From a virus, in IMG/VR virus record IMGVR_UViG_3300008448_000282, positions 1-36,693 of that record: a DNA stretch of 36,693 nucleotides; one strand, written 5' to 3'. The notes under the pieces are model-generated. The model saw only the letters and a program-made list of their open reading frames with translations, was not told the origin of the DNA and did not search any database. The position numbers and the translations under genes are program-made. Of this stretch, positions 1 to 22,206 are shown piece by piece. How positions within the stretch are numbered: position 1 is the first letter of the stretch; the number at the start of each line of letters is the position of its first letter.

Positions 1-3000
1 TTTGCATTTGCTCTTTGGAAAACAGAAGTTGTATAATAGTCTGCTAAGTTAGGCATTTTATCTATAGCAGACAATGTTTCGTTATAAATAGTTAAGAAAT
101 CCTCATAAGGAAGAAGTGTTGTGAAAGAAACAGGAGAAGTGGAAAGACCACTCTGTAATACAGCAAGTCTTAAAAACTTACTGCGTAATTGTGGATTTGT
201 TTCTTTTAAGTTGTTAATCAATTCGTTAAATGAGAAAATGATTTGATTTTGGTCATAGGTTTTGTTTCCCTTACCCACTATTTCCAAATTATCTGGAACA
301 CCTTCTTTAAATCCAGGACGCAATTTAAATGAATTGATTAATATGTTGTTAAATAAAGGATGTTCTTTGTCCTCCTTCACCTTTTTAACAAATTCCATAA
401 TCTCTTTGGCAGCACTAGCTTTCCCATCCTTACCAAGAAGGATAGTTTCTACTTGTGTATTAACTTGTGTATTTGTCTGTGTAGCCCAATCAAAAAGATC
501 ACTTACAGCTTTTCTTGCTATTTTAACAAAGTCTCTATCATTCTCAGTGACATAAGGTAGTAGAACAGCTTCCAACACCTCTCTTGTAGAAACTGTTGTA
601 GGATCTTCAGAAGGTCTGTCTGAAATTAAGAATGTTGCAAAGGCATCTCTTACATTGAAAATAGCATCTTTTAGCTTTCCAACAAATGACTTTTGTAACA
701 AACCATCTACAGCAGGGATAATGTTATTGTTCTCATCTAGAGAAGAAAGGATAGTTTGTCTGCCTTTTTGCAGTTGCATTTTCTTTTTAAAGATAATGAA
801 AGGATCGTTAATTGTAGCTGTGTCAAAGTTAGACCCCTGAGTTACATGCAATAAGTGCTCAGCCATCTTTGCGTATTTCAAGAACTCTTTCAGAATAAAC
901 TGTTGTTGCACCTTTTGTAAATCTGTCAACTCTGCCTTCTTTCCAATCTGATTATACTTAAGCATTTTGAAAAGGGCATCTTCTGATGGAATTTCTGTAG
1001 GTTCAGCAATATCTTCTGATTGAGGAGAATATGCATCTAACACATCACTAATAATTCTATCATTAAATAACCATGTATATCCAGAGCTTTCAATGTTTCT
1101 TAATAAATCACGAACAATAGGTTGGTTCATGAAGTATCCTACAGATCTAATAGGCACACCAAGCTTAACTAAAAACAGCCATGTAGAAGCAACATTTGGT
1201 GTAGCTCTAAGCTGCATAATCCAAGGACCTTTAGAAATATCCACATATCCATCAATAAACTGACCAATGACATCAGAAATAAAGTTTCTTTCCTTTTTTT
1301 CTTCATTAGCATCTCTACTCATTGAAAGTGTAGGACGCTTTTTACCATTTACAACTACTGAATTATATTCTCTAAACTTAACCTGGGCATCTCCCAAATA
1401 CTTCTTATCCGTAAGACTTATTCTATCGGATTCTAAAAGATCATCGTTTACAAAGAACAAACCTCTTTGGCTCTGAGCATGGTTTGTTTGTGCAATAGCT
1501 GCAATACCAATAGCATATTTACCTGTTACAAACGCATGTCTTAACTGAGACATGAAGTTTCTTTTTAACATGTTTCCTACAGAGGTGTAGTCAAACTGAG
1601 CTTCTTTTGTCTCATCTAGAATGTCCTTTGTAATCTGTTTCATCTGATCAGCAGAGTTTGCTTTAACCAGATTATCAAAGTTAAGAGGATGTGACACTAA
1701 TTCCTCCATAGATTCTATGTATGCATTCTCTAATGATTGGGAGTACTTTTTGTTTTTAAACTCGTCTGCAAGAACTTCTTGTATATCAAAATCTGTAAGC
1801 TTATCAATATCTTTTCCAAGCTTCTCCATTTTATCAATAAAGAACTGTTCAACAACTCTTACAGGAATTTGATCATCTACTAACTCATCAGCAAACATTT
1901 CCTTAAATATAGGAACCCATTTAGCTCTAGTTTTATCTGTTGACTTTCCAAGACTAAGCTCTCCAAAAAGAGTTTGTAAATTGGTTGTAGAAATTTTCTT
2001 TGCTTCTTTTCTATCTATTTTACTTTGCAGAATGTTATAGAAAAGATCCTTAAATTTCTCTTTAGCTTGTTCTCCAAAACCATAAAAAGGAACAACCTCA
2101 AGCTTTCCACCTATCCCAGAGAAGGTGTTTTTGAGATACATAGAAAGTTTATCTATATCAAAGTCAGATCCCACTTTTTTAACAAGGGCTGAAGGAATCA
2201 CTACGTTATCACCAAACTCTTTAGGAAGGAACTGTTTAATTCTAAAGACATCTATTGAGTTTTGTTTCTGTGTAGGAATACGAAATGCTACACCCTTTAA
2301 TATCTTTTGACCTTCTGGGGTTTCATTCAAATACTTTAACAATTCCTCATCAGACATAGGACTGTCAAACCATCTACCCACCATAACCTCACACACACGT
2401 TCGCCATCTTTATTCTCATAAAACTTCAGAAAATCTGATTGGTATGTATTGGTGGATTTTCCTTCTTTGTTTACAATCACCTTAGCCTCTCTAGGTGTTC
2501 CTTCAAACAATGTAGAAGGAATCTGTACCTTTTGACCTCCACTAATCTTTTGAGAAATTACATTCTTGTCAGCAATTGAAAACAGAACATATCTTATCTG
2601 CTGGTAGGCAGGGGTGGCTTCTAGAACCACTTGTCCTTTTGCATATCCTTTAAATGCAGCAAATATGTTAGCATTTACATCTCTTTTAAGGATTTCACTC
2701 TCAAGAGATTCTATGAGTTTCTTAGGATTGGTTAATTTAAAACCTTCCTTTGTTTCTGTTATACCAAGTTTATCAAGAAGATTCTCATATCCATTCTGAA
2801 TCTTTTCTTCAAGAATCTTCTGATTGTTCTTTACAAGTCTGTAGATTTCAGATTTTTCCTTTTCTTTTTCTGAGAGACTTATCCATTTAGCAAATCTAGT
2901 ATCAATGTCTCCACCTGGTTCAAAATCAATAGGTACACCTGCTTCAAGCATGTCCATAGTAACAAGTTTAGTAACCTGTGATCCTTGTGTTACACGCTCA

Positions 3001-6000
3001 TCTTCTTTAGAAGGAACCTCTGTTTGAATACCCATTATGGAGAATGGTATCTTATTTATCTCATTAAACGGTGCATCATTAAATGTTCCATCCTCTTTAT
3101 ATAAAGGTGTAGAAACTGTAGACCCCACCTTTCTACCAGTGTTATAAACAGCATAATCTAAGTTCTGCTCGTCCATCTTTTCAGCAAACTTGACAGCATT
3201 TGATTCTGGGTTTAGCTGATGTGCTATTCTAAAAGAAACAGGCGTAAGTGCAAACTTATCTAATACAATATCGTTGTAATCTTTTCCATCCTCTTTGTTT
3301 CCAGAAACAATAGGTTTAATAGTAGTGTATGCACTTCTTACACCAGGATTGAGCTTTAAGAACTTAGGGAAATCTTGTTTCGCATCTTTTATACCATACT
3401 TCTCTTTTTCAGCTTTTGTAAGAGTTTCAGGCTTTCTCACCATTTTATAATAAGCAACGTCATATCTATATTGATCTTCCTCACGATCATTCCAATTCCC
3501 TGCTTTAATTCTAATCCAGCGATTGGCTTTCATAGAAACAAATCCGCCACCATCTGTTTCTTCAAATGTTTCATCAGGATATAAATCATTAGAAGACATA
3601 ACATCATCTACTGCTGTTGAATTCAGGTAGTTTCTTGACATTTCTGTATATCCAAAATCACCTGGTTTATATCCTTCGTTATATACCTTTTCAATAGAAA
3701 CATTTGCATCATCAGAATCCATAAGAGCCTGTCTTGGAGAACTAAAACTTTTTACACGTTTCAATTCATCCTTGTATTGATAGGGATCTGAATAAAGAAG
3801 TTTATGTAATTCTATATTAGCAATCATGTAATTTACAGAAAGCATCTTTAGATTTCTTGTTAAGTCTTCCTCTGTAAATCCTTCTTTTTCAGCAAATTCC
3901 AAACCTTCTACAACCATCCCTTCTTCTGAGTTATACACTATTTCATATTGTCTTAGCGTATTTTCTACATCCTTAACATCTTCATTTATAAAGTTTTCAA
4001 TAGCAGCATTGATTTCCTTTTCATTGTTCTTGTAGATTTCTTCTGCTGACTTCTTACTTAGTATAATTTTATTATGCAGTTTTTCTCCTAATATAGATTT
4101 GAAAAATCTCAAATCCTTACTGTCTCTACCTGCTATATTAACTATCTTACGACCATCTCTTGAGAGCTCAACTTCAGAAATAAAATAATCTTTGAACAGT
4201 TCGAAAACCTTTTTATATCCTGTGGCTCTAATCATTTCCTCACCAACAAAAGGATCGTCTGAATTATGTAGTTTTACAGCATGTTCAATAGAAGCATCCC
4301 CAGGTACAAGGTTTAAATAATACCCATTTACATTAAGGTTTATTTCTTGTACAAAACGCTCTTTGTAATTTAGCTTAGAGGATTCTTTATTCTTGTTCTT
4401 CTCCTCGTTCACTGTACCATCCACATACGCTGTTTGTAAAATGTCTTCTGTATTAGAGAATCTTTTACCTGTTCCACCATCTATGTTAAATATCTTTCTA
4501 AGAACAAGACTACCTCCACCAGCAATAGGATTTCCGTTTTTAACAGTGCTTACAAAAACATCTGTAAGAAGGTAATTGTATGCTGTACCAGCCAACTCAC
4601 TGAAGTTCTTTGCTTTAGAAATAACATCATGTAAATTACTTAATGCATTAGGATTGAGATAGGTTTGTACACGCTCACCATTTAAGTTAAAATACGTACT
4701 CTCAAACTCAGGATTCTCAATAACAGCTTGCACTGTACCAAGTTGCATTAATCTTTTATCTACGTCTAATGTCTTCTTAGTGAGAGATTTAATACCTTCA
4801 TAAGCTGACATACTTTTCTTAATACCGTTAACAGCATCTATGAATAAACTCTTTTGACTGTCTTTCAGTCTTTTAACTTTCTTAATGTCAAAAGGTATTC
4901 CTATCTTATCAAGAAACTGTACATAGGTTTCTAATTTAGAAGGATCTAAATTAACCTTATTTATGTTTGTTGTAGCGTTAAACGTTTTTTCAGTGGTGTT
5001 ATAACTTACATATGGGTTCTTACCATCTCTTATTGTGCCTATGATGTCATTCATGAAATCATATTTAGCCTGGGCAGCAGCACTAGATAGGCTTGAATCA
5101 CCCACAACAACATCTCCTGTAGGAAGAACAAAGACAGTTTTAACATCAGGATTCTGTCCTTTCATCACTTTCCAGAAACCACTCATCAACTGCCAATCAT
5201 GTTTAGCAGTTAGTTTTCCATATTTATCAGTTTCTGTAGGGAGATTCTTTGTAAGTCTTCTGTATAGGGACCAGTAGTTAGGATTGTTTAGAGCAAACTT
5301 CCTAAACTTTTCCAACATAGTGTCTAAGTTGGTAGCATCATAAAGTTCGTTCTTCAGAGTGATGAACACTTTATCTGCAGGAAGAAGAGTGGCACCACCT
5401 ATTGTATTAGGAACTATTTGAGGTTTACCATCTACAATTCTAGAAATAGGAACAGTGGCAAGCAACATTTTAATAGCAGCATTTGCTTTTCTAAATCCGT
5501 CTACCTTTCTAGCATCGATGAAGTCACTTTCTTTAACTTTGTTCTCATCTGTTAATTGAAGATCATCGTTCTCATCAAACTCAATACCGTAAGGCTTTAA
5601 GAAATCCTCATGCTCTTCAATAAACTCTTCCCAATTATCATGCACCTCATTGTAAAGTTTTGCAATAGGTTCCACTTTAGAAGCATGTACTTCTTTTGTA
5701 ATTAAACCCTCATTAAGATCTTTATCATACGAGTCTGCTTTATTTCCTAATACATCAAGTACATTCTCTCTAAGATCATCGTATGTTTCTTTCTTTTTAG
5801 CCCCAAGTTTAGATATTTGGAATATGCTTTGATTGGTCTTACTGAGACTAGACAAAAGGGTGTATGTCATGTGTTGCATGATTTCACCTCTTTGTACACC
5901 AGGAACTCTATCCAGTCTATACTCATCTTCAACTGTTGGAGGAGCATCTTCTATATCAATAATGCCTGTTTTTGCGTAAGATAGATTGGTTTCAAATGGA

Positions 6001-9000
6001 ATATAGTCTTTGTAATATCCATTTCCTATTTTAGCAAATAGATTAGCTGTGTTTGTTTGAGCTTTCACACCAGTGAAAAACTCCTTAATAAAGGATGCAA
6101 GATCAGCAAATAGCTTGAGAATGAATGGTTTACCCACTGTAGGTTTTGCAGGAATCTTACCAGACATTACATAGTCTCTAAACTCTTCAGCTAATTGTTC
6201 TTTTATTTCTTGATCTGTAGCTGTAGCATATTCTACTTGTTTACCAGTGAATGCATCTGTGTAAGATCCTTTTCTTGCTCTAAACTCTTTAAGAACAGCA
6301 ACACGTTCATCTGCATCAGCAAACATTTTCCATACAGCCTCAAACACCTCATGGTAGGCTGTACCCACCTCAGCATTTTGATAAATGTAAATAGCTCCAT
6401 CTCTAAACTTACCCCATGCCTGTAAACCATTTGTTGTTCTAAGCACGTTCTTCACTCTATATACAGGAATGTTTGGAAAGTTCTTTTTAAGCCATTGTTC
6501 TAGTTTAGTCCAATTCTCTCCTTCAAATCTATTTGCTTCTTCTGCTAGTTTCAACCTGTATGCCTCATTATCAACATTGTTCCCTTTCTTTCTGTTTGCA
6601 AATGCTCCTCCTGTAGGAGCAGTAGGTTTAGCTCCTTCTAAAGCAGCTAGTTCTTTAACAATATCTTTATATGTTCTTTTTAAACCATACTTTTGCTGAA
6701 GAGCGTTTTGAGCTTCAAACTGGTCTCTTCTTGTTTCAGGTTGTTTAATATTAGTATCCTTATATATAGAATCTATTAAACTTCTTAATCCAGATGTATC
6801 AACAAGTTTCTGTAATTCTTCTTCAGAAATACTCTGAGCATAGTACGTACCTTTGTCATTGAATTTTGACAAAGTTAAATACTGTTTACCATCTCTTTCA
6901 TCAATTGAAATTAACCATTTACCTGTTGGTCTTTCAAACCAAATATAAGATTTATCACCAGCCCTAGGTTCAATTGCTGTTACAGTAGTATCTCCAAATT
7001 TTAAAGGTGTTTTTAAATTGGGATCAGCTGAATCAGCTAGTGTAGAACTATTATACTTATCAGTAATTTGTTTAATGTTATTATATAACCAATCAGCTTC
7101 TTCTGCTGTTAATTGATTAGCTTCTATATCAGAAACTACAGGAGCTGTAGGAGCTGGTGCTGTAGGAGCAATTCCTGTAGAAGGAACTTCTATTTTTACA
7201 GAAGTAGATGCTTTCTTTATTATAGAAGTGACAATAACCGCCCTTGCAAAATCTTTTCCTTTTCCTTTAGCTTTGTCAACAGCATCTTCAACTGTTTCAG
7301 GAATTTCAAAATTTAATGCTCCTCTATCAATTAATTCCTTTTGAACATCAACTGTCACTTTAAATGGTTCTCCTGTTTCCTCCATTTGCTTTTGCATTAT
7401 TTCAGCAAACACCTTACCATCAATTGAAAACTTGACATCTCCAAATGTACCCAATGTCATAGTTTCCATTGTACCATCCAGCTTGTAAGAATTTGTAGCT
7501 GGTTGTGCTGCAGGAGCAGTGGGAGCAGCTTGTGGAGCAGGAGCTGATTTTACAACAGGTTTTTGAGGAATAATGTAATCATCAATTGTGTCATTTAATG
7601 TAAAATATATACCTTCTCTATTTACATCACCTTCTCCTTTAAGAGGTCTGAATTTTGTTGTAAGTGGAATATCCGCACCAGTTCTTTTTTTACCATCAGC
7701 ATCTTTATCTGATAGCAGGTAGGACTGATAATTTTTCCATTCTTTGAATATAGGATTCCCCTCTTTGTCAAGACCTACTATTTCAAAATATGGTTGTTTG
7801 AATTTACCCTCAGCATTAAGAGATGTAGCATTTGCGTTATGGTACATTCCCTCCAGGAGAGCAATTATTGTGTCTCTGTTTTGCTCAAGACCTGTTGGAG
7901 AAAATTCAAAACTTGCACCTCTTCCCGATATAAACAATCTAGTTTCTGTGGTTCCATCAGCTGTAGGAACATCTTCAAAGAACACACTGTTAAATTTAGC
8001 TTCTTTACGTTCTCCTGTTTGAAGATTCTTTGGTATACCCCAATACACCACTGATTTTAACCATGTCATGAGTCTTTGTGATCTATCTGTTTTCACAGAC
8101 CCATCTTCAAGAGAGTTTTTAGCAAGTTGATGAATTACATCATATATGAGAGTGGCTTTTTTGTTGGAAAATTTAGTGTTAAACAATTTAGCCATCCCAC
8201 CAGGAACTTTCAAAAACACCCTACCTAATGGTGTATTGAATGTAACAGATCCATTAGATACAGCATCATTGTTTGTAGCAACAGTGATGAGATGCTTTTC
8301 TGCAAGATCTGCAAAGGTGATTAGTCCAGCATCTTCTGCAGATGTACGAGCATCATGATCTGTTTCTTCTTTCCCACCAGGAGTTATATATGTTACATAC
8401 TTAGGAATACCAAAAGATGCAGATATGCTCTTTGGTTCACCAAGTTCTGTTTCCTTCAGTCTTTCCTCTCTCCACTTAGCATATTGTTCTCTGAGAGCTT
8501 TTTCAACATAATCTGGTGTTGTGTCCCTAAACATTGTTTGTGTCTGACCATCGTAATTTGCTGTAAGCTTAGACTCTGGAAACACTTGAAACACAGCAAG
8601 ATCTAATAGATTTGCACCCTCAGGAATAGGAGCACCAAATTCATCCACAGGTGTGAATGTACCATCTCCATTATCCTGCACCATTACAAGAGCAATAATC
8701 CCATCTGTAGGAATGTTTGTTCCTTCTACAAGCTTATTTGTAAGTCCAGGAATAAGCTGATCTTCTGTATTAGCTGTGACAACTATTCCCTTGATATCAT
8801 CCCTGTTCTCTAGAGAATTAAATCTGAATCCGAACCTATTTGCTCTTTGGTTAAAAGGTTTTTCAGCATCTTTATAGGAAGGAGCCATTGTACTACCTAC
8901 AACAGCCAAATCCTCTTTTTTGGATTCTTGCTGATAGGTTTTAGACTCGCTTACATTATTAGCTACGTCATTACTATTTGTACCAAGTAGTTGAGTTCTT

Positions 9001-12000
9001 AACTCTTGATTCTTCTTAAGTTTTGCCTCTTCTTCTTTCTGTTTCTTTATTCTTTCAGCATATTCCTCAAGAGTGTCTAGCACCTTTTGTTTTGCCATCT
9101 GTTCTATCATCAGACCATCTATTCCTAACTCAAGTTCTTTAATCTGTTCTGTTAAAGATTCCACTCTCTTCGTTAAATCAGGAATTTTCAATTCTTCTCC
9201 AAAAGAATCTATTTGATCCTGTAGTTCCATTACAAGTTCTGTAAATCCAAGCTTTTCAGAAATAAACTGTTTAGCTCCTTCTTCTCCCTGATATTTCTCA
9301 AGGCGAGCTTGTAATTCTTCTACAGAAAGAGGAACATTGGGGTTTTCTTCTTTAATTCTTCTAACAAAATCATTCATTAAAGAAAGAGCATTGTCAAGAG
9401 CACTTTCCACAGACTTTAATAATGACTTCCCAGACTTAATAGCAGTGTCTGTATTATCAATCATTTCTTCAAGACTTCCGATTTGTTCCTTCAACTCACT
9501 TAAGAGTTCTCCACCCTTTTCTGGAAGTTCTTGTGCATTCTGTGCCAAGTCCTGAAAATAAGGAAGCATCAATTCAAGCTCTTCCTTCTCCACCTCTAAT
9601 TGTAAAATTTCAGTTTCAACATCAGACTTTATTTTTGTAAGAGTGTCAATTGTTTTTCTAATAGCTTTTGTAAACTTCTTCCTAGGAAGTCCTTCTTTTG
9701 TTTTAGAAAGATTGTCCAAAGCTTCCACTGTTTCAGAAAGCTTTTTCTTGTTAGACTCTAATTTCTTGTTTATCTCATCAAGTCTACTTTTACTACTATC
9801 ATACAAATCAGCAATTATCTGATTTCTTGTAGCAAGTTTTTCATCTAGAGATACAGGTTCTTTAGATGCTTGTTCAGCTATTTGTGTAAATTTTTTGTTA
9901 GAATATATTTGAGCTACATTATATCCTTCCTTGGGAGAGAATTGATCTCTTGTCACTCTTTTAATAAATTTTCCATCAAAAGATTTGAATGTAAGAGAAT
10001 CATTTGTTTTATCATAAAACAGTCTACCTTCAACTTTTTTACCACCCCCTCTATTATAAGTGAATATATGATCATAGGTTTCTACAAAAAACTTAGCATT
10101 ATCTGTATCAACATCAGCCACTCTTCCCAATGTAATCTTTTCAAATGCCTTTTTACTAACTGTGTGAATTTTACCATCAGGAGTTTGTAATTTTATATTC
10201 CCTTCAGGAGTTTCTTCAAGTATTTTGAACCTGGTGATGTCCAACACCTTTCCTTCAGTTTCTTTTACACTAACTCTTTTTCCAGCAAAATATTCTTCTC
10301 CTACAATAATTTCACCATCACCTTCTTGTGTAACAACCTTAATCCTTGGTCTTTTAGCTATGTCTTCTGGTTTAACAACTTCTTTACTAACTTCTTTATA
10401 CTTTTCTGGAGATTTTAGAATGTCGTTATAGTCATCTATAAACATTCGTCTTCTTAAAACTGATTCAGACAAAGATTCAACTAAATCCACTTTATCTTGT
10501 ACATCATCGTCTGTAGCACTTGTTTCCTTTATTTGATCCTCTATATATTTAATTGTTTCTTCTGATAATTTCGCACCTTTTGTAAGTTTCCCTGTTTTTA
10601 AAAGTTCATCAACCAATGGTTGCGTATCAATTCCAACTATACCAGAATTAATTTCAGGAATTCTTTCATCATAAAATCTAATCTTTGATGCTGCATAAGT
10701 GAGCTTATCTATTACACCATCATCCATTGAACCACTATACTTATCAGAAATAGCAGAATATATTTTTTCTGTAGATTTTACAGTGTTTCTTATTTTGTTT
10801 ATCCTACTAAGAAATTGTTCTCTTGTTTCATTCTTATTAACTATTTCCTCATTTTGAAGTTCACGAAAACCATCGTCATCCATTGCCTGTTTCTCATACA
10901 TCTTTAGTTCGTTCTCAATAGAACTTCCTTTTCCATATTTTACTCTAGGCATAACATATGAGAACAAATAGTCGTTCTCATAATCTTTTTCAGAAAATGT
11001 ATCGTTTGCTTCTATAGCACCTTGTCTAAGTTTTTGAGAACCCATTGCTGCTCCCAAGTATTTAGCCTGATCTATTAAAACTTTCTTTATATTGGTTTTA
11101 TTCAGAGCACTTACAGCGATATCTGTATTTATTCCTTTTTCTCCACCAAGTCCAAACAACCCTTGTTCACCAAGAATACCAGATTTACCAAATCCAAACT
11201 TTGTATTTCCTTGTTCATCTTTGTAAGTACCAATATAACCAGCTTGCTGCATTCCCCCAGAAAGACCTCCAATTAATATACTTTCCAATCCTTCTTTTGT
11301 AGAAATTGCTTCTTCTAAACCCTCACCAAAAACATTTCCTACAGCATTATTAAAATCTTTAACAAAAGACTTAACATTTTCTGCATTATCATATCCTCTT
11401 TGGAAATAATTACTTACGCCTGATTCTATGGCAAACTGAGCACCTTCTTCAAAAGCCTCACTTGGAGCAAATAACAATCTACCAGCACCTCTTACACCAC
11501 TAATTAATTTTCCAGCATATGTTTTAGCAGTGTATTTTTGAAATACATCGCCAACTGTCTCTTGATAAACATCGTTTATTATTGCTCTTTCAGCTTTCTT
11601 CGATGAGTTTAATATCTTAGGGAGAGATATGTAGTTAGTTGCAGTTAGAAGAATTGAGTTCATTCCCCATGTGTACATTCCAATTTTTTTAGAAAAATCA
11701 TTAATTCTTTCTAAATCATCTCCTGTTGGATTGTATCCATATTTTTCTCTAAATTCCTCAATTGCTTTTTCTCTAAATTGATTCATGCTTTGCAATCCTT
11801 CAATAGAAGCCTCTCCAAATGTTCCCATTGTAGAAGTTAAAATTCTATCAGATTGCACTAATGCTGAAGCTGCCTTTTCTCTGAGATATTTACCAGCAGT
11901 CGAATTTAACGCACCCTCAAAAGCAGTAAATTTCTTCAGATTAGGAGCAGTGTTTATTGCAGCTTCTACAGCTGTAGCTGTTTCAAGCCCACGACCAACT

Positions 12001-12635
12001 TGAACTAATTTATTTGTAACTCCAATTGCTTGAAAAAGTTTACTCCAAGCAACACCACCTCCAAGGGCACCTAATGAAAATCCTAAATTTTTAATTATCT
12101 TATCAGACCAAAAATTTGCTGTAAGAATATTATCTGGTGAATACCATTCAGCATCTTTTTCAGTTTGAGTGTAATAGTTTGGAAGAATATTCTCTAAGTT
12201 TTTAGACATATTGTCTAAACTTCTAGTAACATCGTTATCTATAAGAGATGACCATCCTTTGAAAGGCACAGATAATGCACCATATACAAGCCCTAATGTA
12301 CCAGATCCAAATGATGTAGCAGCTGTACCAACCATTTTACCAACACCATTGGCAAGCTTATCCCAAGCAGACTGTTGTTGACCAGCCATTTCTTCATAAT
12401 TTGTACCTGGTCTAGTTTCATCATATCTATTTCCTATATAAACAGATGATATAGGAATATCTGCAACACCTTTAGGTTTTACAGCATTCATTTTTTCTGT
12501 AAAGTAATCATTTACAGAAAGAGTTTTTGTATCACTCAGATTACCTTTTTGTGTAGATGGGAATGGAACATTTGGTGTTTTAGGTAAACCCAAAGCCACC
12601 GCTGGTCTGTTAATATAGTTTTCTTTTTCTGGCAT
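1..12635 (-). CDS. Giant multidomain virion protein with crAss-like virion RNA polymerase (partial, C-terminus off the left edge)
   Basis: One uninterrupted frame of 4,211 codons; I read it codon by codon on the minus strand and found no stop. It starts with MPEKENYINR, whose ATG shares one base with the TAA of the upstream 928-aa gene (TAATG), so translation is probably coupled. Visible layout: Gly/Ala-rich segments near residues 99-124 and 452-470; a long charged coiled coil about 930-1215; Ala/Pro linkers about 1692-1711, 1812-1831 and 1992-2011; HEVFE at 2095-2099, a zincin-like HExxH variant; RIPTQKQNS from 3452, then VGSDFDIDKL with DFDID at 3491-3495; GKYAIGIAA from 3705. DFDID is the Mg-binding loop of the first double-psi barrel in crAss-like virion RNA polymerases such as Cellulophaga phage phi14:2 gp66. 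That enzyme is packaged, enters the cell and transcribes early genes. The N-terminal 2,000 residues have no assigned role; ejection or envelope passage is an inference. Confidence 0.85.
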   Translation of the reverse strand, partial: MPEKENYINRPAVALGLPKTPNVPFPSTQKGNLSDTKTLSVNDYFTEKMNAVKPKGVADIPISSVYIGNRYDETRPGTNYEEMAGQQQSAWDKLANGVGKMVGTAATSFGSGTLGLVYGALSVPFKGWSSLIDNDVTRSLDNMSKNLENILPNYYTQTEKDAEWYSPDNILTANFWSDKIIKNLGFSLGALGGGVAWSKLFQAIGVTNKLVQVGRGLETATAVEAAINTAPNLKKFTAFEGALNSTAGKYLREKAASALVQSDRILTSTMGTFGEASIEGLQSMNQFREKAIEEFREKYGYNPTGDDLERINDFSKKIGMYTWGMNSILLTATNYISLPKILNSSKKAERAIINDVYQETVGDVFQKYTAKTYAGKLISGVRGAGRLLFAPSEAFEEGAQFAIESGVSNYFQRGYDNAENVKSFVKDFNNAVGNVFGEGLEEAISTKEGLESILIGGLSGGMQQAGYIGTYKDEQGNTKFGFGKSGILGEQGLFGLGGEKGINTDIAVSALNKTNIKKVLIDQAKYLGAAMGSQKLRQGAIEANDTFSEKDYENDYLFSYVMPRVKYGKGSSIENELKMYEKQAMDDDGFRELQNEEIVNKNETREQFLSRINKIRNTVKSTEKIYSAISDKYSGSMDDGVIDKLTYAASKIRFYDERIPEINSGIVGIDTQPLVDELLKTGKLTKGAKLSEETIKYIEDQIKETSATDDDVQDKVDLVESLSESVLRRRMFIDDYNDILKSPEKYKEVSKEVVKPEDIAKRPRIKVVTQEGDGEIIVGEEYFAGKRVSVKETEGKVLDITRFKILEETPEGNIKLQTPDGKIHTVSKKAFEKITLGRVADVDTDNAKFFVETYDHIFTYNRGGGKKVEGRLFYDKTNDSLTFKSFDGKFIKRVTRDQFSPKEGYNVAQIYSNKKFTQIAEQASKEPVSLDEKLATRNQIIADLYDSSKSRLDEINKKLESNKKKLSETVEALDNLSKTKEGLPRKKFTKAIRKTIDTLTKIKSDVETEILQLEVEKEELELMLPYFQDLAQNAQELPEKGGELLSELKEQIGSLEEMIDNTDTAIKSGKSLLKSVESALDNALSLMNDFVRRIKEENPNVPLSVEELQARLEKYQGEEGAKQFISEKLGFTELVMELQDQIDSFGEELKIPDLTKRVESLTEQIKELELGIDGLMIEQMAKQKVLDTLEEYAERIKKQKEEEAKLKKNQELRTQLLGTNSNDVANNVSESKTYQQESKKEDLAVVGSTMAPSYKDAEKPFNQRANRFGFRFNSLENRDDIKGIVVTANTEDQLIPGLTNKLVEGTNIPTDGIIALVMVQDNGDGTFTPVDEFGAPIPEGANLLDLAVFQVFPESKLTANYDGQTQTMFRDTTPDYVEKALREQYAKWREERLKETELGEPKSISASFGIPKYVTYITPGGKEETDHDARTSAEDAGLITFADLAEKHLITVATNNDAVSNGSVTFNTPLGRVFLKVPGGMAKLFNTKFSNKKATLIYDVIHQLAKNSLEDGSVKTDRSQRLMTWLKSVVYWGIPKNLQTGERKEAKFNSVFFEDVPTADGTTETRLFISGRGASFEFSPTGLEQNRDTIIALLEGMYHNANATSLNAEGKFKQPYFEIVGLDKEGNPIFKEWKNYQSYLLSDKDADGKKRTGADIPLTTKFRPLKGEGDVNREGIYFTLNDTIDDYIIPQKPVVKSAPAPQAAPTAPAAQPATNSYKLDGTMETMTLGTFGDVKFSIDGKVFAEIMQKQMEETGEPFKVTVDVQKELIDRGALNFEIPETVEDAVDKAKGKGKDFARAVIVTSIIKKASTSVKIEVPSTGIAPTAPAPTAPVVSDIEANQLTAEEADWLYNNIKQITDKYNSSTLADSADPNLKTPLKFGDTTVTAIEPRAGDKSYIWFERPTGKWLISIDERDGKQYLTLSKFNDKGTYYAQSISEEELQKLVDTSGLRSLIDSIYKDTNIKQPETRRDQFEAQNALQQKYGLKRTYKDIVKELAALEGAKPTAPTGGAFANRKKGNNVDNEAYRLKLAEEANRFEGENWTKLEQWLKKNFPNIPVYRVKNVLRTTNGLQAWGKFRDGAIYIYQNAEVGTAYHEVFEAVWKMFADADERVAVLKEFRARKGSYTDAFTGKQVEYATATDQEIKEQLAEEFRDYVMSGKIPAKPTVGKPFILKLFADLASFIKEFFTGVKAQTNTANLFAKIGNGYYKDYIPFETNLSYAKTGIIDIEDAPPTVEDEYRLDRVPGVQRGEIMQHMTYTLLSSLSKTNQSIFQISKLGAKKKETYDDLRENVLDVLGNKADSYDKDLNEGLITKEVHASKVEPIAKLYNEVHDNWEEFIEEHEDFLKPYGIEFDENDDLQLTDENKVKESDFIDARKVDGFRKANAAIKMLLATVPISRIVDGKPQIVPNTIGGATLLPADKVFITLKNELYDATNLDTMLEKFRKFALNNPNYWSLYRRLTKNLPTETDKYGKLTAKHDWQLMSGFWKVMKGQNPDVKTVFVLPTGDVVVGDSSLSSAAAQAKYDFMNDIIGTIRDGKNPYVSYNTTEKTFNATTNINKVNLDPSKLETYVQFLDKIGIPFDIKKVKRLKDSQKSLFIDAVNGIKKSMSAYEGIKSLTKKTLDVDKRLMQLGTVQAVIENPEFESTYFNLNGERVQTYLNPNALSNLHDVISKAKNFSELAGTAYNYLLTDVFVSTVKNGNPIAGGGSLVLRKIFNIDGGTGKRFSNTEDILQTAYVDGTVNEEKNKNKESSKLNYKERFVQEINLNVNGYYLNLVPGDASIEHAVKLHNSDDPFVGEEMIRATGYKKVFELFKDYFISEVELSRDGRKIVNIAGRDSKDLRFFKSILGEKLHNKIILSKKSAEEIYKNNEKEINAAIENFINEDVKDVENTLRQYEIVYNSEEGMVVEGLEFAEKEGFTEEDLTRNLKMLSVNYMIANIELHKLLYSDPYQYKDELKRVKSFSSPRQALMDSDDANVSIEKVYNEGYKPGDFGYTEMSRNYLNSTAVDDVMSSNDLYPDETFEETDGGGFVSMKANRWIRIKAGNWNDREEDQYRYDVAYYKMVRKPETLTKAEKEKYGIKDAKQDFPKFLKLNPGVRSAYTTIKPIVSGNKEDGKDYNDIVLDKFALTPVSFRIAHQLNPESNAVKFAEKMDEQNLDYAVYNTGRKVGSTVSTPLYKEDGTFNDAPFNEINKIPFSIMGIQTEVPSKEDERVTQGSQVTKLVTMDMLEAGVPIDFEPGGDIDTRFAKWISLSEKEKEKSEIYRLVKNNQKILEEKIQNGYENLLDKLGITETKEGFKLTNPKKLIESLESEILKRDVNANIFAAFKGYAKGQVVLEATPAYQQIRYVLFSIADKNVISQKISGGQKVQIPSTLFEGTPREAKVIVNKEGKSTNTYQSDFLKFYENKDGERVCEVMVGRWFDSPMSDEELLKYLNETPEGQKILKGVAFRIPTQKQNSIDVFRIKQFLPKEFGDNVVIPSALVKKVGSDFDIDKLSMYLKNTFSGIGGKLEVVPFYGFGEQAKEKFKDLFYNILQSKIDRKEAKKISTTNLQTLFGELSLGKSTDKTRAKWVPIFKEMFADELVDDQIPVRVVEQFFIDKMEKLGKDIDKLTDFDIQEVLADEFKNKKYSQSLENAYIESMEELVSHPLNFDNLVKANSADQMKQITKDILDETKEAQFDYTSVGNMLKRNFMSQLRHAFVTGKYAIGIAAIAQTNHAQSQRGLFFVNDDLLESDRISLTDKKYLGDAQVKFREYNSVVVNGKKRPTLSMSRDANEEKKERNFISDVIGQFIDGYVDISKGPWIMQLRATPNVASTWLFLVKLGVPIRSVGYFMNQPIVRDLLRNIESSGYTWLFNDRIISDVLDAYSPQSEDIAEPTEIPSEDALFKMLKYNQIGKKAELTDLQKVQQQFILKEFLKYAKMAEHLLHVTQGSNFDTATINDPFIIFKKKMQLQKGRQTILSSLDENNNIIPAVDGLLQKSFVGKLKDAIFNVRDAFATFLISDRPSEDPTTVSTREVLEAVLLPYVTENDRDFVKIARKAVSDLFDWATQTNTQVNTQVETILLGKDGKASAAKEIMEFVKKVKEDKEHPLFNNILINSFKLRPGFKEGVPDNLEIVGKGNKTYDQNQIIFSFNELINNLKETNPQLRSKFLRLAVLQSGLSTSPVSFTTLLPYEDFLTIYNETLSAIDKMPNLADYYTTSVFQRANA

Positions 12636-15421
12636 TATTGTCCGTTTAATATAATACTTGCAAAAGTTGGGTTAATTTCAAGAAGTGCTTGTGTTGCTGC
12701 TCCTAAATTTGAATTTCCTGGAAGTTGTCTAACTTGTCTAGATTTTCCATCAGTTACATATAAGTATGGATAATATTTACCATTAGAGTATATTACATTT
12801 CCTTTTGCACTAATTCCACTACCTTTCAATCCTCTAAAATCAAGCTCATCAAAATATGCATCCCCTTGTATGTATGTAGATGTTTCCCCAGGATCACCTG
12901 CTGAACTTTTTCCTTTATTATAATTAATAAAGTTTCTAAGAGATGATGTTTGTCTCGATTCATACAATGTATTAATATCAATTCCTAACTTAAGAGCCTC
13001 GTCTGGTTGCACTGTCATACCCCCCTGTCTACTTAAATCAGTGTTGTTGTAAGCAACTACTTCAACAACAATCTCTCCATTTGCATTTATTGTAGGTTGA
13101 GCACTGAGTGTTATTTTACTAGGATCATCAATATTGGCAAGAGCTTTTTGGAATTCTTCAAAGTCACCAGAAACATTTATTCTACCTCCTGATTTTTTAC
13201 TATATTCACCAGCAAATCTTTTAATATTATACAATAAGTTTCTATCTGTTTCAGCATCTCCACTAAATACTGGAGCCTTTAGATTTGGTCTCATATTGTA
13301 AGCTTTTTGTATAACTTCGGACTTAGCTTTCAACATTTTAGCAAAATTAGGATCACTGATTTTATCATAAATACCAGTGGCTGTTTTGAAAGGATCTTTT
13401 GTATCTCCTGAATATTTAATATCTCTGTAAACTTTTCTTATTCCACCAAAGTCACTCAATAAATCAACTGCGCCTGTAATAGGTCCTCCAGAGTAAGCTC
13501 TTCTTCTTAAGTTTTCATATACCATCCCATCTGCCAATTCTCCTTTTCCTCTAGAATCAAGTCTGGCTTTTGCTGCCTTTCCTACTCTTCTAACTTCTTC
13601 ATCAACACCACCAAGTTCGCCCAATACTGAAATATTTCCATGTAAATATAATGCTAAGTCATATTGATCATCTTTTGTCAGAGTCCATTTCTTTCCATTA
13701 TATGTGATTGATTCTTCTTTTAAACCTTTTGTAAAATTATCTTTTGTATATTGGTTTCCGTAAACATATGATACTTGCTCGTCTATCTGCTTTTTAATAG
13801 TTTGTTGTGTTTTCCATTCTTTTTCTAATGTTTTAAATTGATTATATCTATCCTCAAGAGCTGGATTTTTTTTCTTCTGTTCAGCAGACATACTATTGTA
13901 TGTTTTTACAGATTTATTTACATATGTAGCCATAAAATCCTCAACGTTTTCTTTTCTTCTATCTGCTATCTCTTTAATGATTTTATACTTAGCTACTTCT
14001 GGTTTATCTCCACTAGCAATTAAACTGTTTAGTCTTTTTTGATTTGCAGGAATATCTCCAAACCCAGAGTTGTCCCATATGAAATCTGCTGATCCCATTG
14101 CAAAATTATTAGCAGCATCGTCATAGTTTTTTTCTGCAATTCTAATTACATCAATATCAGAAAACTGACTACCTTGTTCAAAATCATCTCTTGTCACTCC
14201 TGCTCCTACACCACGTTTAGATTGAATGTTTAATATTGCTATGTCTCTATCTTGTCTTAATTTGTCATAGTTATAATCCATTGTTCGATTAAACTCCCTT
14301 CTTTGTCTAGCCTCTGTTTGAGCCCATCTACTTTGATCATTTGCTTCTTTTTGCATATCAAACTGAGCTTGCCAAGCAGGGTTTGCTAACACTTGTTCTT
14401 TGTTCTTAATTTGTCCGAACATCGTCACATACCTATTATTAACATCTTCTTTATACAATTGTCCTCTTATAGCATCAGGGTTATTTTGTACAGTTTCTAG
14501 AAGTGTATTATAGTTTATGTCTATAGTTTCAAGTTTTTCCTCATAAAAATCAATTTGATTCTGAACATCTTCACCGTGTGTTTTTCTACTATATAAATCT
14601 GCTATTTTTTCTAAGTAATCATTTTTGATGTTATCTCGTTGATTGTTTATTTTTTGTGTGAGCGCATTCTCATCATAATTTCTATAATTATATTCACCTG
14701 TTATATTCAACTGCCTACTTACTCTAGGATCAGAAAATATTTGAGCTATTGTTTCCTGAACCTTTTTAGGAAACCTTCCCTCTTTTTCCAACCTTGTCAT
14801 GGTTGTTGAATATATAAGATTACCTTGTTTATCCTTTAAAGGTTTACCATCTGCACCAAGTTGATAAATTTGGTCAAATGAATATTCGTCTGGCTTTACT
14901 GCATCAAATGTTTCTTTTGCAAATTTCCATATATCAAAATAGGGCGTATAATTAGCACTAAACGATTCACCAAGATTAGTAGATGACATCCAAGCGTTAG
15001 CTTTTTTATCAAAATTGTATATATTATCAGGGCTTGACTTACCTTCATCTATATCTTTTTGTATCTTTTTTCTTTGTTCTCTATACCAAGCAGTTGAATT
15101 TACAGCATTTTTAATTGTAGGATCTTTTACAATCTGTTTTGTCATTCCTCCCACAGCATTTGTAAGCTGGAAATTAGAGAAATCTGCTGCTGCAAATTTT
15201 GTTAAATTGTTCCCTAGTTCATTGAGTTTGGATTGTAGATAGTTTTTATCAACGTCTCTTATTACATCCAACCCTGCAATATTATCTATTTCAGACTGGA
15301 TTTTTGTAACGTTCTGTTCATAAGCCTGTTGTTTGGCCATACCCACCTTAACCATTGCCTCAACGGGCAATTGTTGTACGTATGGGTTAAACTTAGGTAT
15401 AATGTCTGTAAACGAAGCCAT
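12635..15421 (-). CDS. Probable virion cargo protein, 928 aa, first gene of the RNA polymerase operon
   Basis: The ATG at 15421 is the only good start and lies 14 bases downstream of a Bacteroidota-type promoter. The protein is mostly helical and charged, with no signal peptide and no enzymatic motif I can recognise. The N-terminus (FNPYVQQLPVEAMVKVGM, then LDVIRDVDKNYLQSKLNEL) matches a pattern I associate with proteins placed just before the giant RNA polymerase in crAss-like phages. The middle is long helix (QRREFNRTMDYNYDKLRQ). The end is more beta-like. In phage phiCrAss001 the proteins coded at this place are internal cargo stored in the tail and capsid and expelled with the DNA; by position this one should do the same. 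The gene shares one base with the polymerase gene, so the two are probably made in a fixed ratio. Exact function unknown. Confidence 0.7.
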   Translation of the reverse strand: MASFTDIIPKFNPYVQQLPVEAMVKVGMAKQQAYEQNVTKIQSEIDNIAGLDVIRDVDKNYLQSKLNELGNNLTKFAAADFSNFQLTNAVGGMTKQIVKDPTIKNAVNSTAWYREQRKKIQKDIDEGKSSPDNIYNFDKKANAWMSSTNLGESFSANYTPYFDIWKFAKETFDAVKPDEYSFDQIYQLGADGKPLKDKQGNLIYSTTMTRLEKEGRFPKKVQETIAQIFSDPRVSRQLNITGEYNYRNYDENALTQKINNQRDNIKNDYLEKIADLYSRKTHGEDVQNQIDFYEEKLETIDINYNTLLETVQNNPDAIRGQLYKEDVNNRYVTMFGQIKNKEQVLANPAWQAQFDMQKEANDQSRWAQTEARQRREFNRTMDYNYDKLRQDRDIAILNIQSKRGVGAGVTRDDFEQGSQFSDIDVIRIAEKNYDDAANNFAMGSADFIWDNSGFGDIPANQKRLNSLIASGDKPEVAKYKIIKEIADRRKENVEDFMATYVNKSVKTYNSMSAEQKKKNPALEDRYNQFKTLEKEWKTQQTIKKQIDEQVSYVYGNQYTKDNFTKGLKEESITYNGKKWTLTKDDQYDLALYLHGNISVLGELGGVDEEVRRVGKAAKARLDSRGKGELADGMVYENLRRRAYSGGPITGAVDLLSDFGGIRKVYRDIKYSGDTKDPFKTATGIYDKISDPNFAKMLKAKSEVIQKAYNMRPNLKAPVFSGDAETDRNLLYNIKRFAGEYSKKSGGRINVSGDFEEFQKALANIDDPSKITLSAQPTINANGEIVVEVVAYNNTDLSRQGGMTVQPDEALKLGIDINTLYESRQTSSLRNFINYNKGKSSAGDPGETSTYIQGDAYFDELDFRGLKGSGISAKGNVIYSNGKYYPYLYVTDGKSRQVRQLPGNSNLGAATQALLEINPTFASIILNGQ

Positions 15422-15507: not shown

Positions 15508-18500
15508 TTAACCTTTATACATTTTCAGGATTGATGCGTTTGTAGAATGTTTTTTAGTTTTTCCACCATTTTTAGCATCAGTGGTTTTTTGTTTCTCATA
15601 TTTTACATTTCCACTATTTTCATCAACCACCTTTTTGTAGCCAGGTTTTTCAGGAAAATCAAAGAGTGTCAATCCTCTATTTCTAGCCATCATATCTGGA
15701 GTGAATCCGTATTGTGGGAAGAGGTTTGAATATGTAGCAAGTGTCCTGTTCTCAAGCTTGTTCTGAAGAGTTTTGCTAGCAATAGAGTTCATTGCTTCCT
15801 GGAATGTAGCTTTTGTGTTTGATCTAGCTTGTTCTTGTCTTGTGTACTGCTGATCCAAAATTGCAAGGTTTTTCAACTGAGCATCATTCAATAATTCTCT
15901 ATTCTTGTTAATCACCTCATTCTCCATCTGCTGATTCATTCTGAACTGATCAGCCAACACTTCACTGTTTGCTGCATATTTCTGACCAGCAAGTTGAGAA
16001 AGTGCTGCTGGGTTATATCCTAATATTCTTTGTAAAGCATTAAAGGTTGCCTGATTTTCATTCAGCCGATTTTGGAAACTTACGTCAGACATTGGTGTTG
16101 CTAACAACGGTTGGAATGTTTGTGCCTGTACAGATTGTAACTGGTTGTTTCCCAATGCTGTAAACTCTCCAAGAAACTGTAAAGCATTTAATTGTTCTTG
16201 AAGAGGTCTATTCAAAATAGGTGTCAATTGAGAAGACAGAGCTTTCGCATAGTCGTAAGTAGTCTCTTTTTTATCTGGAGGTTCTTTTTGTTTTATTTTT
16301 GTAGGTAAAGTTTGTGAGCCAGGCATTCTTTTCCCACCTGGTCCAACACCTTTTATTTCAAAATATTCACTAGGTCCAAAATCATCAGCTTCTGAAAAAT
16401 CTATACTTTCTCTAAACCCAGAAGGTGAGGTGAGGTTAATAGGCGTAGGTGCATTTTCAATCTCTCTACTTTTCTTTAACACTTCTGATAGTGATAATTC
16501 TTTTTGCTTTTTTTGTTTTTTACCTTTCTGTGCACTTTCTATTTCCTTACCATTTCTTGCCATATCATCTGCTTTAGCTGTCTTTATCTTACCCTTAGCA
16601 AGAGCATCTGCATCAACTCCCATTTCTTCAGCTGTTTTGTTTATTGCCTGTTGAAGAGCTGCAGCATTTATTTTGTATTGTGCCAATCGTTTTAGTTTTT
16701 CATTTTCAGCATCAATTATAACATTCTGAGTGTTAAGTGCTAATTTATCTAAAGAAGTGACAGGAGTTATGTTATCTAATGCACTTGTTGCTTTTTCTAT
16801 TTTCTTATTAGCTTTTTCTTCCTGCTCTGAATATTTCTTCACAAGGTTTTTGAATTTAATAGGTTTGTTGTGAGATAGAGAAGGATCACCTATTTCAGAA
16901 ATAGATTGTTTAGGTACCATTAAATTACCATACACAACCATACTTCCATCACCACTTTCTGTTGCTGGTTCACCTCTTTCCACTTCAACATCCACTTTAT
17001 TCTCAGCAGCCTTTGTGCCATATTCTGCATAATCTGTGTAAGTATCATTTCCTGTAGGACCGTAAGAAACACCAATACCTGTTCTTCCTTTACCATCACT
17101 TTCATCATGTGATTGTCCTCTGAACATAACTGTTTCTCCTGTTCCTGGTAAGTAAGGATTTTGAGAAATAGGTTCTGCATATCCTCCCCAATGAGTTTTC
17201 ATTTCACCGCCAAAAGCCATTTGTTCTTCTGGATCTACATAATTCTGACGAAGGTTTCCACCAGTTCTCAACATATCTGCATCAGCAGGAGGTTTCAACA
17301 AATCTTTTACATCGTATTCTCCAAACTTTGTAATCACCTGTGGCTGCCAATCATGACTCACCCATCCATGTTCTCCCATAGGAACATCTCCTCCGTTTCT
17401 AACAAATCCAGAATATTGACCTTGTATAGCTCTTGCTCCTTGTTGCGTGGATATTTTACTGAGATTTTTCTGTTGTTTCTTTTGTTCTTTCTCCATCTTT
17501 TCAGCACTTCTATCAACTAACCCTCCAATTAATTCTCCAACATTACCCATTCCTGGTATACCAATTAGTGATCCCACTACTTCACCAACACCTTGACCTA
17601 TACTAGATCCAGCATCTTGCCCCACACCTGGAACAATATTTGTAAATTGTCCAGCTACATCAAACCCTCCTTTATTAGCAAAGCTTTTTAAATTAAATCC
17701 TCCTTGAGCCATAGGAAGATAGCCACCTCTTTTATACTGTTTCACTCTATCACTATCTTGAAGAGGTTCAAATCCTAAGTCTGAATAAAGAGTGCCAGGA
17801 TTGTACATGTTTTGAATCTCTGTAGGATTACCACCAATCATGGCACCATCTTCAGCTTGCAGAAAGTTTGTACCTGTACCATAAGACATGAATGCTTGAC
17901 CAGGAGTAACCATGTTATCTTCTGGACGAGTGTATCTTCTTGCTGCAATTTCTGGTCTTGTTGAAGCAGCTTGTAGAGCTACATCACTAACAGCTGTTGC
18001 TTGTCTGGCTGCGCTAAGAGCTTCTTTTTGCTCTTTAAGCATTTGTATTCCTCGAATAATGTTTTGTGCAGCATCAGCTATTCCCATTGGACCACCCATA
18101 TTTCCAGCAAATTGTTGAAGTCCACCTTGACCTTTTTTAATCTTTGCACCTTTTTTACCTGATAATTCTGCAAGTTGTGAAACATCCTCAGCTGTTGCTC
18201 CTCCAGAAGTTACCCCAGAGCCACCACCTCCCATAATGTTTCCTAATAGATTTCCTAACATATTTTTTGAATCTTTTGCAGCCTGTTGTTTTTCTGCCTG
18301 TAACATTTGTTGCTTATAAGCTTCTTCTTTTCTCATCTCATCAGTCATCCCTGTAAGTATCAGGTCTTGTTGATCACGAACTTCTTGAAAGTTTATTGGT
18401 TGGAAATCTGTTACATCACCACCAACAAATTCACCAATATTACCTCCTGTTTGAAATTTACTTTTATTTACAGCAAAACCTTGTCTTTTTTCATTCAGAT

Positions 18501-19005
18501 ATTCTGAAGGAAACATTACAGACGTTGTATATTGTCCTGGATAACCATCTCCCCATTTTCTACCTTGTTGTTCATATTGATATATAAAAGGCATAAAATT
18601 AGAATAATCTTCATTTACTGGAAAATTAAATTTAACAGGACGAACACCTGTTTTATGACCTTCAATCACCCAATTACGATAGTCTTGTAATGTATTCTGT
18701 ATAGAAGGTATTGCTTCTTTTCCTAATCTGGTTTTAGGATTTAACTTACGATATTCTTCTAATTTCTTCAAACCTACACTGTCTTTGTCTAATTCTGGTT
18801 TACCTTTCATAGGACCTAACCATTGTACATAGTTATTCCATTCCTGCATTAATTCAGGATCTACAACTTGATCTCCTGTCTGAGCTTTTTTAACTTCTTT
18901 TTTAGCTTCAGGATGAGCTTTAAAAAATGCTGCTTCTGTAGGGTATTTCTTGTAGAACTCAGATTCGTTCTTAACACCAGCGATTTTGAGAAACTTTGCT
19001 TTCAT
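15508..19005 (-). CDS. Probable virion cargo/ejection protein, about 1165 aa, with glycine-zipper segment
   Basis: I chose ATG 19005 (MKAKFLKIAGVK), one base after the TGA of the preceding gene. An in-frame ATG at 19032 would add nine residues inside the end of that gene. Visible parts: an N-terminal helical segment ending KKAQTGDQ; a Gly-rich stretch around 18210-18260; a glycine-zipper-like hydrophobic stretch at 17515-17640 (SSIGQGVGEVVGSLIGIPG is its core); a block with ETVMFRGQSHDESDGKG and VEVERGEPA, which I associate with crAss-like virion proteins; a coiled coil (EQEEKANKKIEKATSALD); and a Gln/Asn-rich helical C-terminal third. Glycine zippers are common in phage ejection proteins that insert into or cross the host envelope. 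No enzyme motif was recognised. A role as ejected cargo rests on position and these features. Confidence 0.7.
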   Translation of the reverse strand: MKAKFLKIAGVKNESEFYKKYPTEAAFFKAHPEAKKEVKKAQTGDQVVDPELMQEWNNYVQWLGPMKGKPELDKDSVGLKKLEEYRKLNPKTRLGKEAIPSIQNTLQDYRNWVIEGHKTGVRPVKFNFPVNEDYSNFMPFIYQYEQQGRKWGDGYPGQYTTSVMFPSEYLNEKRQGFAVNKSKFQTGGNIGEFVGGDVTDFQPINFQEVRDQQDLILTGMTDEMRKEEAYKQQMLQAEKQQAAKDSKNMLGNLLGNIMGGGGSGVTSGGATAEDVSQLAELSGKKGAKIKKGQGGLQQFAGNMGGPMGIADAAQNIIRGIQMLKEQKEALSAARQATAVSDVALQAASTRPEIAARRYTRPEDNMVTPGQAFMSYGTGTNFLQAEDGAMIGGNPTEIQNMYNPGTLYSDLGFEPLQDSDRVKQYKRGGYLPMAQGGFNLKSFANKGGFDVAGQFTNIVPGVGQDAGSSIGQGVGEVVGSLIGIPGMGNVGELIGGLVDRSAEKMEKEQKKQQKNLSKISTQQGARAIQGQYSGFVRNGGDVPMGEHGWVSHDWQPQVITKFGEYDVKDLLKPPADADMLRTGGNLRQNYVDPEEQMAFGGEMKTHWGGYAEPISQNPYLPGTGETVMFRGQSHDESDGKGRTGIGVSYGPTGNDTYTDYAEYGTKAAENKVDVEVERGEPATESGDGSMVVYGNLMVPKQSISEIGDPSLSHNKPIKFKNLVKKYSEQEEKANKKIEKATSALDNITPVTSLDKLALNTQNVIIDAENEKLKRLAQYKINAAALQQAINKTAEEMGVDADALAKGKIKTAKADDMARNGKEIESAQKGKKQKKQKELSLSEVLKKSREIENAPTPINLTSPSGFRESIDFSEADDFGPSEYFEIKGVGPGGKRMPGSQTLPTKIKQKEPPDKKETTYDYAKALSSQLTPILNRPLQEQLNALQFLGEFTALGNNQLQSVQAQTFQPLLATPMSDVSFQNRLNENQATFNALQRILGYNPAALSQLAGQKYAANSEVLADQFRMNQQMENEVINKNRELLNDAQLKNLAILDQQYTRQEQARSNTKATFQEAMNSIASKTLQNKLENRTLATYSNLFPQYGFTPDMMARNRGLTLFDFPEKPGYKKVVDENSGNVKYEKQKTTDAKNGGKTKKHSTNASILKMYKG

Positions 19006-19006
19006 A

Positions 19007-22182: not shown

Positions 22183-22206
22183 AATTTTCTTCAATCACTT
22201 TTACAT

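Follow-up and report, generated by a model that had tools for sequence, protein, structure and literature searches.

The window analysed here, i.e. the whole stretch of 36,693 bases, is an unplaced virus record from a metagenome fragment. Its minus strand carries a giant open reading frame (ORF) that starts with an ATG at position 12635 and runs to position 3, encoding 4,211 residues with no stop codon and remaining open at the window edge. According to 78 alignments to relatives, a further 190-501 residues (median 231) lie past this edge, and the full-length chain would be about 4,440 residues long. The ORF is read as an N-chain, a zincin-like module and a virion RNA polymerase, in that order. 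The N-chain begins with the N1 module (residues 1-620, positions 10776-12635), which was matched by hmmsearch, by hhalign and to phrog_32390 and has no cysteine, and continues with residues 621-1720 (7476-10775), which are conserved in the clade. It is followed by a variable Pro/Ala-rich linker (residues 1721-2000, 6636-7475) with an identity of 4-28% in most alignment rows and no cysteine, by the zincin-like module (residues ~2041-2240, 5916-6515), by the N-terminal region of the polymerase (residues ~2241-2699, 4539-5915) and by a two-barrel RNA polymerase core (residues 2700-3899, 939-4538). The sole cysteine in the 4,211 residues is Cys3415 (2391-2393); a nearby position is a cysteine in many of the relatives.

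The same strand encodes a 928-residue neighbour that is likely to be a cargo (ejected) protein (12635-15421), a 1,174-residue neighbour (15508-19032) and a muzzle-like virion protein (22207-27279) that is nearest to those of phages Lbo-JY46 and phi17:2. The muzzle-like protein is present as two ORFs, with positions 12-423 of phrog_15100 matching 22207-27279 and positions 1588-1781 matching 21316-22194. For the virion genes as a whole (15508-36265) the nearest named relative is the Leptolyngbya phage Lbo-JY46, followed by phi17:2 (epsilon group), neither of which is placed in Crassvirales by NCBI. crAss-like phages are held to infect Bacteroidota, whereas Lbo-JY46 is recorded from a cyanobacterium, so its host record deserves to be checked. 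The window contains no crAss-like terminase or portal gene; among relatives, the phi14:2 terminase was matched in 13/15 and the phi17:2 portal in 15/15. An Rfam search of the window returned nothing.

Recomputing the motif positions in the giant ORF gave the same result as the first-pass annotation, which had placed a DFDID polymerase motif at 2151-2165, at residue 3491 of a protein exceeding 4,211 residues, with RIPTQKQNS 39 residues ahead of it. In the recomputation DFDID occupies residues 3491-3495, and RIPTQKQNS, a conserved strand ahead of the active site, starts at residue 3452 (2256-2282). The motif was also found where it had been said to lie in the polymerase gp66 of phage phi14:2, at residue 1361. 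As a pattern, the motif carries little information: DxDxD occurs three times in the giant protein compared with 1.3 expected from shuffles, which is at chance level, and DFDID itself arose in 5/2,000 shuffles. However, the 100 residues around DFDID are the best-conserved stretch of the chain, with 63-84% identity to seven relatives, and GSDFDIDK was invariant both in alignments of eight relatives and in 63/63 rows of a larger alignment (A3). We therefore consider the motif real because it is conserved among relatives, and not because of motif statistics.

Searches with the whole 4,211-residue chain by hmmscan against PHROGs and Pfam gave nothing, and separate pieces did better; similarly, a single-sequence phmmer search of the PDB gave no match whereas a profile search did. 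A tblastn search with the giant chain matched crAss-like phages, including phi14:2 gp66 (E 7e-11). The profile of residues 2700-3899 matched the structure of that protein (6vr4_A) with E values of 2.7e-32 (8 rows) and 2.8e-44 (63 rows), well above all other PDB entries, and aligned GSDFDIDK with GSDFDIDK, so that the DFDID of the window coincides with the catalytic metal-binding motif of 6vr4. An AlphaFold model of the core (mean pLDDT 85.2, pTM 0.84) again gave 6vr4 as the top match, both in Foldseek (E 2.4e-32) and in VIA (Z 21.1, rmsd 3.3 over 926 residues), and the next VIA matches were two polymerases of RNA silencing, QDE-1 (Z 12.7) and RDR2 (Z 12.5); the fold was judged from these whole-model matches, rather than by tracing the barrels singly. 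The first-pass annotation had proposed a crAss-like virion polymerase related to RNA-silencing polymerases, a proposal that would have suffered had the motif fallen in a disordered loop. The profile and structural matches bear the proposal out: a 6vr4-like fold was predicted and the motif blocks, at core-model residues 781-800, lie outside disordered loops (pLDDT 87 and 73). The polymerase's own N-terminal region starts near residue 2240 (model residue 250 is window residue 2239) and matched 6vr4 from residue 96 of the latter (VIA Z 8.8, 389 residues, rmsd 23.4). DFDID is thus almost certainly the active site of a crAss-like virion RNA polymerase. The window core shares its catalytic core, fold and DFDID motif with phi14:2 gp66 (PDB 6vr4, Steigviridae), but gp66 stands alone, as a protein of 2,180 residues with cysteines at its termini, whereas the core in the window is the C-terminal portion of a chain formed by fusion, with no cysteine at the junction. 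According to the literature, phi14:2 translocates its polymerase along with its DNA, and this enzyme transcribes the early genes; the polymerase of the window phage is very probably packaged and ejected as well.

What precedes the polymerase could be assigned by comparison with phages in which the parts are separate. In hhalign, residues 79-586 aligned with the N-terminal part of crAss001 gp47 (probability 100, E 6.7e-39), and residues 51-465 with phi14:2 g067 (97.4, E 1.1e-11). By hmmsearch, N1 was found in crAss001 (E 7.5e-59), phi17:2 gp039 (5.7e-61) and Lbo-JY46 (1.1e-56), csAssE-Sib was also matched, and phrog_32390 matched N1 at 1.8e-17. An equation of phrog_32390 with p-crAss gp45 (both 1,957 residues) was dropped, as that length is shared by phi17:2 gp039 and N1 gave no match to p-crAss gp45. 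Residues 621-1720 gave no confident match outside the clade, although part of them matched crAss001 gp47 weakly (probability 64.9). N1 of the window has no membrane-spanning segments at the cut-off used, and single borderline segments were seen in N1 of crAss001, phi14:2 and Lbo-JY46.

Both crAss001 gp47 and phi14:2 g067 are separate proteins in their phages. Mass spectrometry of crAss001 virions detected gp47, gp49 and gp50, each as a protein of its own (PMC10172136), and phi14:2 g065-g067 were annotated from proteomics. Like the window chain, both proteins carry the N1 module, and gp47 also shares the zincin-like C-terminal part; they differ from it in being separate and in ending in cysteine, and gp47 is in addition encoded on the opposite strand. 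Judged by these matches, the window chain is a gp47-like and a gp50-like protein in one piece, and there is next to no doubt that the residues ahead of the polymerase represent a gene fusion. The suggestion in the first-pass annotation that functions carried by separate proteins elsewhere are fused here thus finds its counterpart in the matches of N1 to these two proteins.

The zincin-like region matches the C-terminal part of crAss001 gp47 (hhalign 98.2%, E 3.1e-14) as well as the middle of chains from cr108_1, cr118_1 and cr55_1. In the window, HEVFE (residues 2095-2099, 6339-6353) stands in place of HExxH, i.e. the gluzincin HExxH is absent. The structural model of this region is weak (pLDDT 67.6, pTM 0.43); VIA matched it to a zincin-like domain (Z 6.2-6.6) and an aminopeptidase (Z 3.8), Foldseek gave no match below 0.001, and Pfam gave scattered weak matches only. 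A literature search for a paper on the module found none. The zincin-like label is therefore claimed from homology to crAss001 gp47 only. The position of the module at the point of fusion, between halves that are separate genes in other phages, would suit a polyprotein that its own zincin-like module cuts into N-chain and polymerase. Against this, an alignment of 75 rows has HExxE in 62 of them (the window and 61 others) and HExxH in 13, it is crAss001 and cr85_1, whose genes are split, that keep HExxH, and wherever the partner chain downstream of the polymerase was seen in a relative, it has a gene of its own. We set a self-cleaving polyprotein aside because HExxH is absent from the window, and consider such processing very improbable. 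The two forms of the motif differ at a second site: every HExxE row has K or R at position 2145 (window ~6200), whereas E occupies it in 11 of the 13 rows with HExxH. The forms switch about 8 times on the polymerase tree, and in 5 well-supported independent switch pairs the change was in the same direction on average 4.7 times and never against it (sign test p 0.0625).

We assessed how widespread the fusion is using the best 80 of at least 427 relatives. The set comprised 91 loci, of which 84 were examined, the others being the window itself (L001), named phages (L009-L011) and repeat contigs (L046, L069 and L088). One further locus, L078, was left out of the tally because its motif is followed by A instead of K, so that the motif was recognised at 83 loci from relatives, of which 80 are distinct; the three identical rows were removed from the fusion tally but kept in the clade cysteine counts below. 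N1, N3 and the motif lie in one ORF closed at its start in at least 56/80 distinct relatives. All but one of these 56 ORFs are complete, with 3,761-4,504 residues (median 4,262) and the motif at 2,948-3,587. Among the remaining distinct loci, those running off their contig comprise 11 with N1 (off the contig start), 3 with N3 and 4 in which neither was seen, and the closed ORFs comprise 4 with N3 only (three long ones and L004) and 2 with no N-module (L050 and L084). Fusion is, from these sequences, the norm in the window's clade. The recurrence of the fusion on independent contigs, together with the joining of zincin and polymerase in cr118_1 and cr55_1, makes it barely conceivable that the long ORF is an assembly artefact joining two genes, even though the window is a fragment of a metagenome contig.

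Fused zincin-polymerase chains are already known in deposited gut phages, and the window adds another. In the named phages, the polymerase lies past residue 3,100 of one ORF in cr118_1 (4,946 residues), cr55_1 (4,551 residues) and Fpv3 (4,287 residues), and the deposited records of cr118_1 and cr55_1, and likewise that of cr108_1, already join zincin and polymerase. The Suoliviridae gut phages cr118_1 and cr55_1, and Fpv3, resemble the window's clade in the late position of the motif and in having a separate partner chain with a cysteine pair, and cr118_1 and cr55_1 also in the zincin-like module ahead of the polymerase; however, N1 is not detectable in these three phages and their identity to the window chain is very low. 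In cr108_1, a group I intron (RF00028, 80 bits; L011:17346-17664) lies within the DxDxD codons. PMC10770324 mentions that crAss-like phages have virion polymerases fused to large uncharacterised proteins, and PMC7886860 describes large multidomain transcription proteins. The former also describes gp96 of P23-45, in which a two-barrel virion polymerase is likewise joined to a giant protein of the particle, but in another phage group, with the tail tape measure protein as fusion partner and with the polymerase N-terminal.

The cysteine content of these proteins is unusual. Cysteine makes up 0.048% of the giant chains of the clade, and the 928-, 1,174- and 769-residue proteins of the window have none, compared with 35 in the muzzle-like protein. 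The virion RNA polymerase of phage N4 (gp50), which we take to be a T7-like and not a two-barrel enzyme, also has no cysteine in 3,500 residues; like the window chain it is giant, ejected and purged of cysteine, but it is a single unbroken chain and so has no cysteine ends. On this evidence cysteine is, it seems, kept out of ejected proteins generally.

The few cysteines that are present in the polymerase block of named phages lie at particular places. We compared the N-chain, the polymerase and the partner chain (g065/gp49) in 23 named records, distinguishing inner ends, which face a neighbouring chain, from outer ends. The rule was found by inspecting ends, the end windows (6, then 9 residues) were fixed after seeing the data and the rows are related, so the counts given here for named phages and for the clade are not independent: a cysteine was present in the last 9 residues of 28/28 inner ends and in the first 6 residues of 26/27 inner starts, compared with 0/19 outer starts and 0/20 outer ends (together 0/39). 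The exception, crAss002, has an annotated start that is 32 residues too long relative to cr107_1, with MSCTPSN at residue 33. Ends broken by introns in cr108_1 and cr116_1 were excluded from these counts, as were the polymerase piece of cr124_1 and the non-polymerase partner chains in phi17:2, Lbo-JY46 and csAssE-Sib. In phi14:2, the 5,398 residues contain four cysteines, all at the four inner ends; the probability of this placement by chance is 1e-9 within this one genome, genomes not being independent of one another.

The cysteines follow the breaks in the block. Where the polymerase and its partner are fused, as in p-crAss and its relatives, only the first junction has a cysteine pair, and where the N-chain and polymerase are fused, as in the window's clade, only the second has one. 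In crAss001 and cr85_1, gp47 is encoded on the other strand and yet ends in cysteine. RNA-level coupling or overlapping genes were rejected as the source of the terminal cysteines on account of this strand change in crAss001, gaps of more than 100 bases and the use of both cysteine codons. In phi17:2, Lbo-JY46 and csAssE-Sib, the large ORFs tested yielded no polymerase, yet the cysteine-ended N-chain is kept, which suggests that the junction does not depend on the polymerase as such. In csAssE-Sib, the next annotated protein has no N-terminal cysteine. In phi17:2, a 517-residue protein, gp038 (L101:23597-25150), sits between N-chain and partner, where other phages have the polymerase, and its only two cysteines lie one near each end. 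A cysteine rule at chain ends was not found in the literature searched on cysteine junctions, the scope of which did not extend to Drobysheva 2021 and Yutin 2018.

In the window's clade, the giant chain has a cysteine among its last 6 residues in 79/80 cases and among its last 7 in 80/80, the sole miss at 6 being L070 (seven from the end). The next chain starts with M followed by a cysteine within 4 residues in 79/79 (pattern M-x-C), and in 70/79 this terminal cysteine is the only one in the chain; both TGT and TGC are used as terminal codons. In the controls, cysteine was found in 2/1,600 internal 6-mers, at 1/65 of the giant's own starts, at 1/72 of the next chain's own ends and at 1/38 of the upstream protein's ends. 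In 60 complete giants, the region around the zincin, where the chains are fused, is free of cysteine. The window behaves as the rule expects, with no cysteine at its outer start or its fused junction. The C-terminus of its chain lies outside the window, and a terminal cysteine there is a prediction.

Two relatives are informative about new breaks. L050 is the one relative with a convincing split at the first junction, where its N-chain ends ..KKCKG and its polymerase starts MGVC, and it has pairs at both junctions. In L029, which accounts for the 1/72 above, the partner chain stops after 422 residues with ..KIKCD and resumes with MACKY, and the break holds a GIY-YIG endonuclease gene (L029:14587-15276; Pfam E 2.8e-8); in L014, an unsplit relative of L029, the partner is unbroken, with one cysteine and without the new pair. 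L084 and L004, whose close relatives are fused, have no cysteine pair.

Because the lone cysteines lie only at facing ends, in cargo that otherwise has almost none, a joint between chains is the best reading of the pattern, and the cysteine ends probably serve to join successive chains. In such a scheme the N-chain, the polymerase and the partner chain would have to stay joined head to tail, and each junction would be closed either by gene fusion or, where the genes are split, by a cysteine pair at the facing ends, the upstream chain contributing a cysteine at its C-terminal end and the downstream chain one at its N-terminal end. Alternatively, the terminal cysteines might serve elsewhere, e.g. 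as a packaging signal or for attachment to another virion protein, with the fusion being ordinary. Disulfides occur in the crAss001 tail and hold virion parts together in the account of PMC10172136, making another partner conceivable, and the neighbouring cargo proteins of the window, all of which have no cysteine, would fit; but the cysteines are confined to ends that face a neighbouring chain, none of the outer ends having one, and the new breaks in L029 and L050 have gained a pair. We therefore regard attachment elsewhere as improbable.

The two sides of the junction in the clade are matched to each other. Tail types and head types correspond one-to-one in 79 junctions, with no tail type having two head types. 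A head cassette of ~50 residues moves alone, e.g. L022 and L091 share 80% identity over it and 14-36% thereafter, and the 19 head types require at least 28 changes on the polymerase tree (33.6 with shuffled labels). The type pairing and the head-type changes suggest that the joints travel as cassettes, although linkage of adjacent DNA explains part of this. The same observations, i.e. the one-to-one types, the solitary movement of the head cassette and the number of changes, would also fit a docking pair in which the terminal cysteines join the chains without a disulfide, through a shared zinc or other metal site or by non-covalent docking, with fusion as the equivalent of docking. That reading is doubtful: most junctions offer a single cysteine on each side, which would not suffice for a zinc site of four cysteines without further ligands, and adjacent DNA is exchanged together, so that the type pairing may reflect linkage alone.

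We consider it reasonably likely that the bond between the chain ends is a disulfide. The disulfides of the crAss001 tail (PMC10172136) indicate that a phage particle can carry them. On the proposed mechanism, the disulfide would form in the particle and be reduced in the host cytoplasm, releasing the polymerase. The cytoplasm is a reducing environment, so the bond would have to form late. The leader half of the chain would pass through the tail first, with the polymerase following in the same chain.

As an account of the whole pattern, a fused chain in which cysteine pairs replace fusion for ejection seems to us a fairly likely best explanation. We lean slightly towards its fullest form, in which separate cargo chains would make up one covalent thread of ~5,400-6,500 residues held by single disulfides, with fusions and pairs interchangeable, cassettes portable and even a fresh homing-endonuclease break provided with its own pair, the thread being pulled through the tail in order and freed in the cytoplasm.

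The problem that such joints would address is that of threading polymerases of several thousand residues, in order, through a channel narrower than the folded protein. If the reading is true, covalent joining by end cysteines would be a simple physical basis for ordered ejection, with release by reduction coming free, and would explain why fusions and splits in the block look interchangeable. The cysteine pattern could also be used in uncultured phages to recognise the order of the chains and the genuine ends of genes, and to tell real splits from frameshift errors, as in L084 and L004, where the pair is missing.
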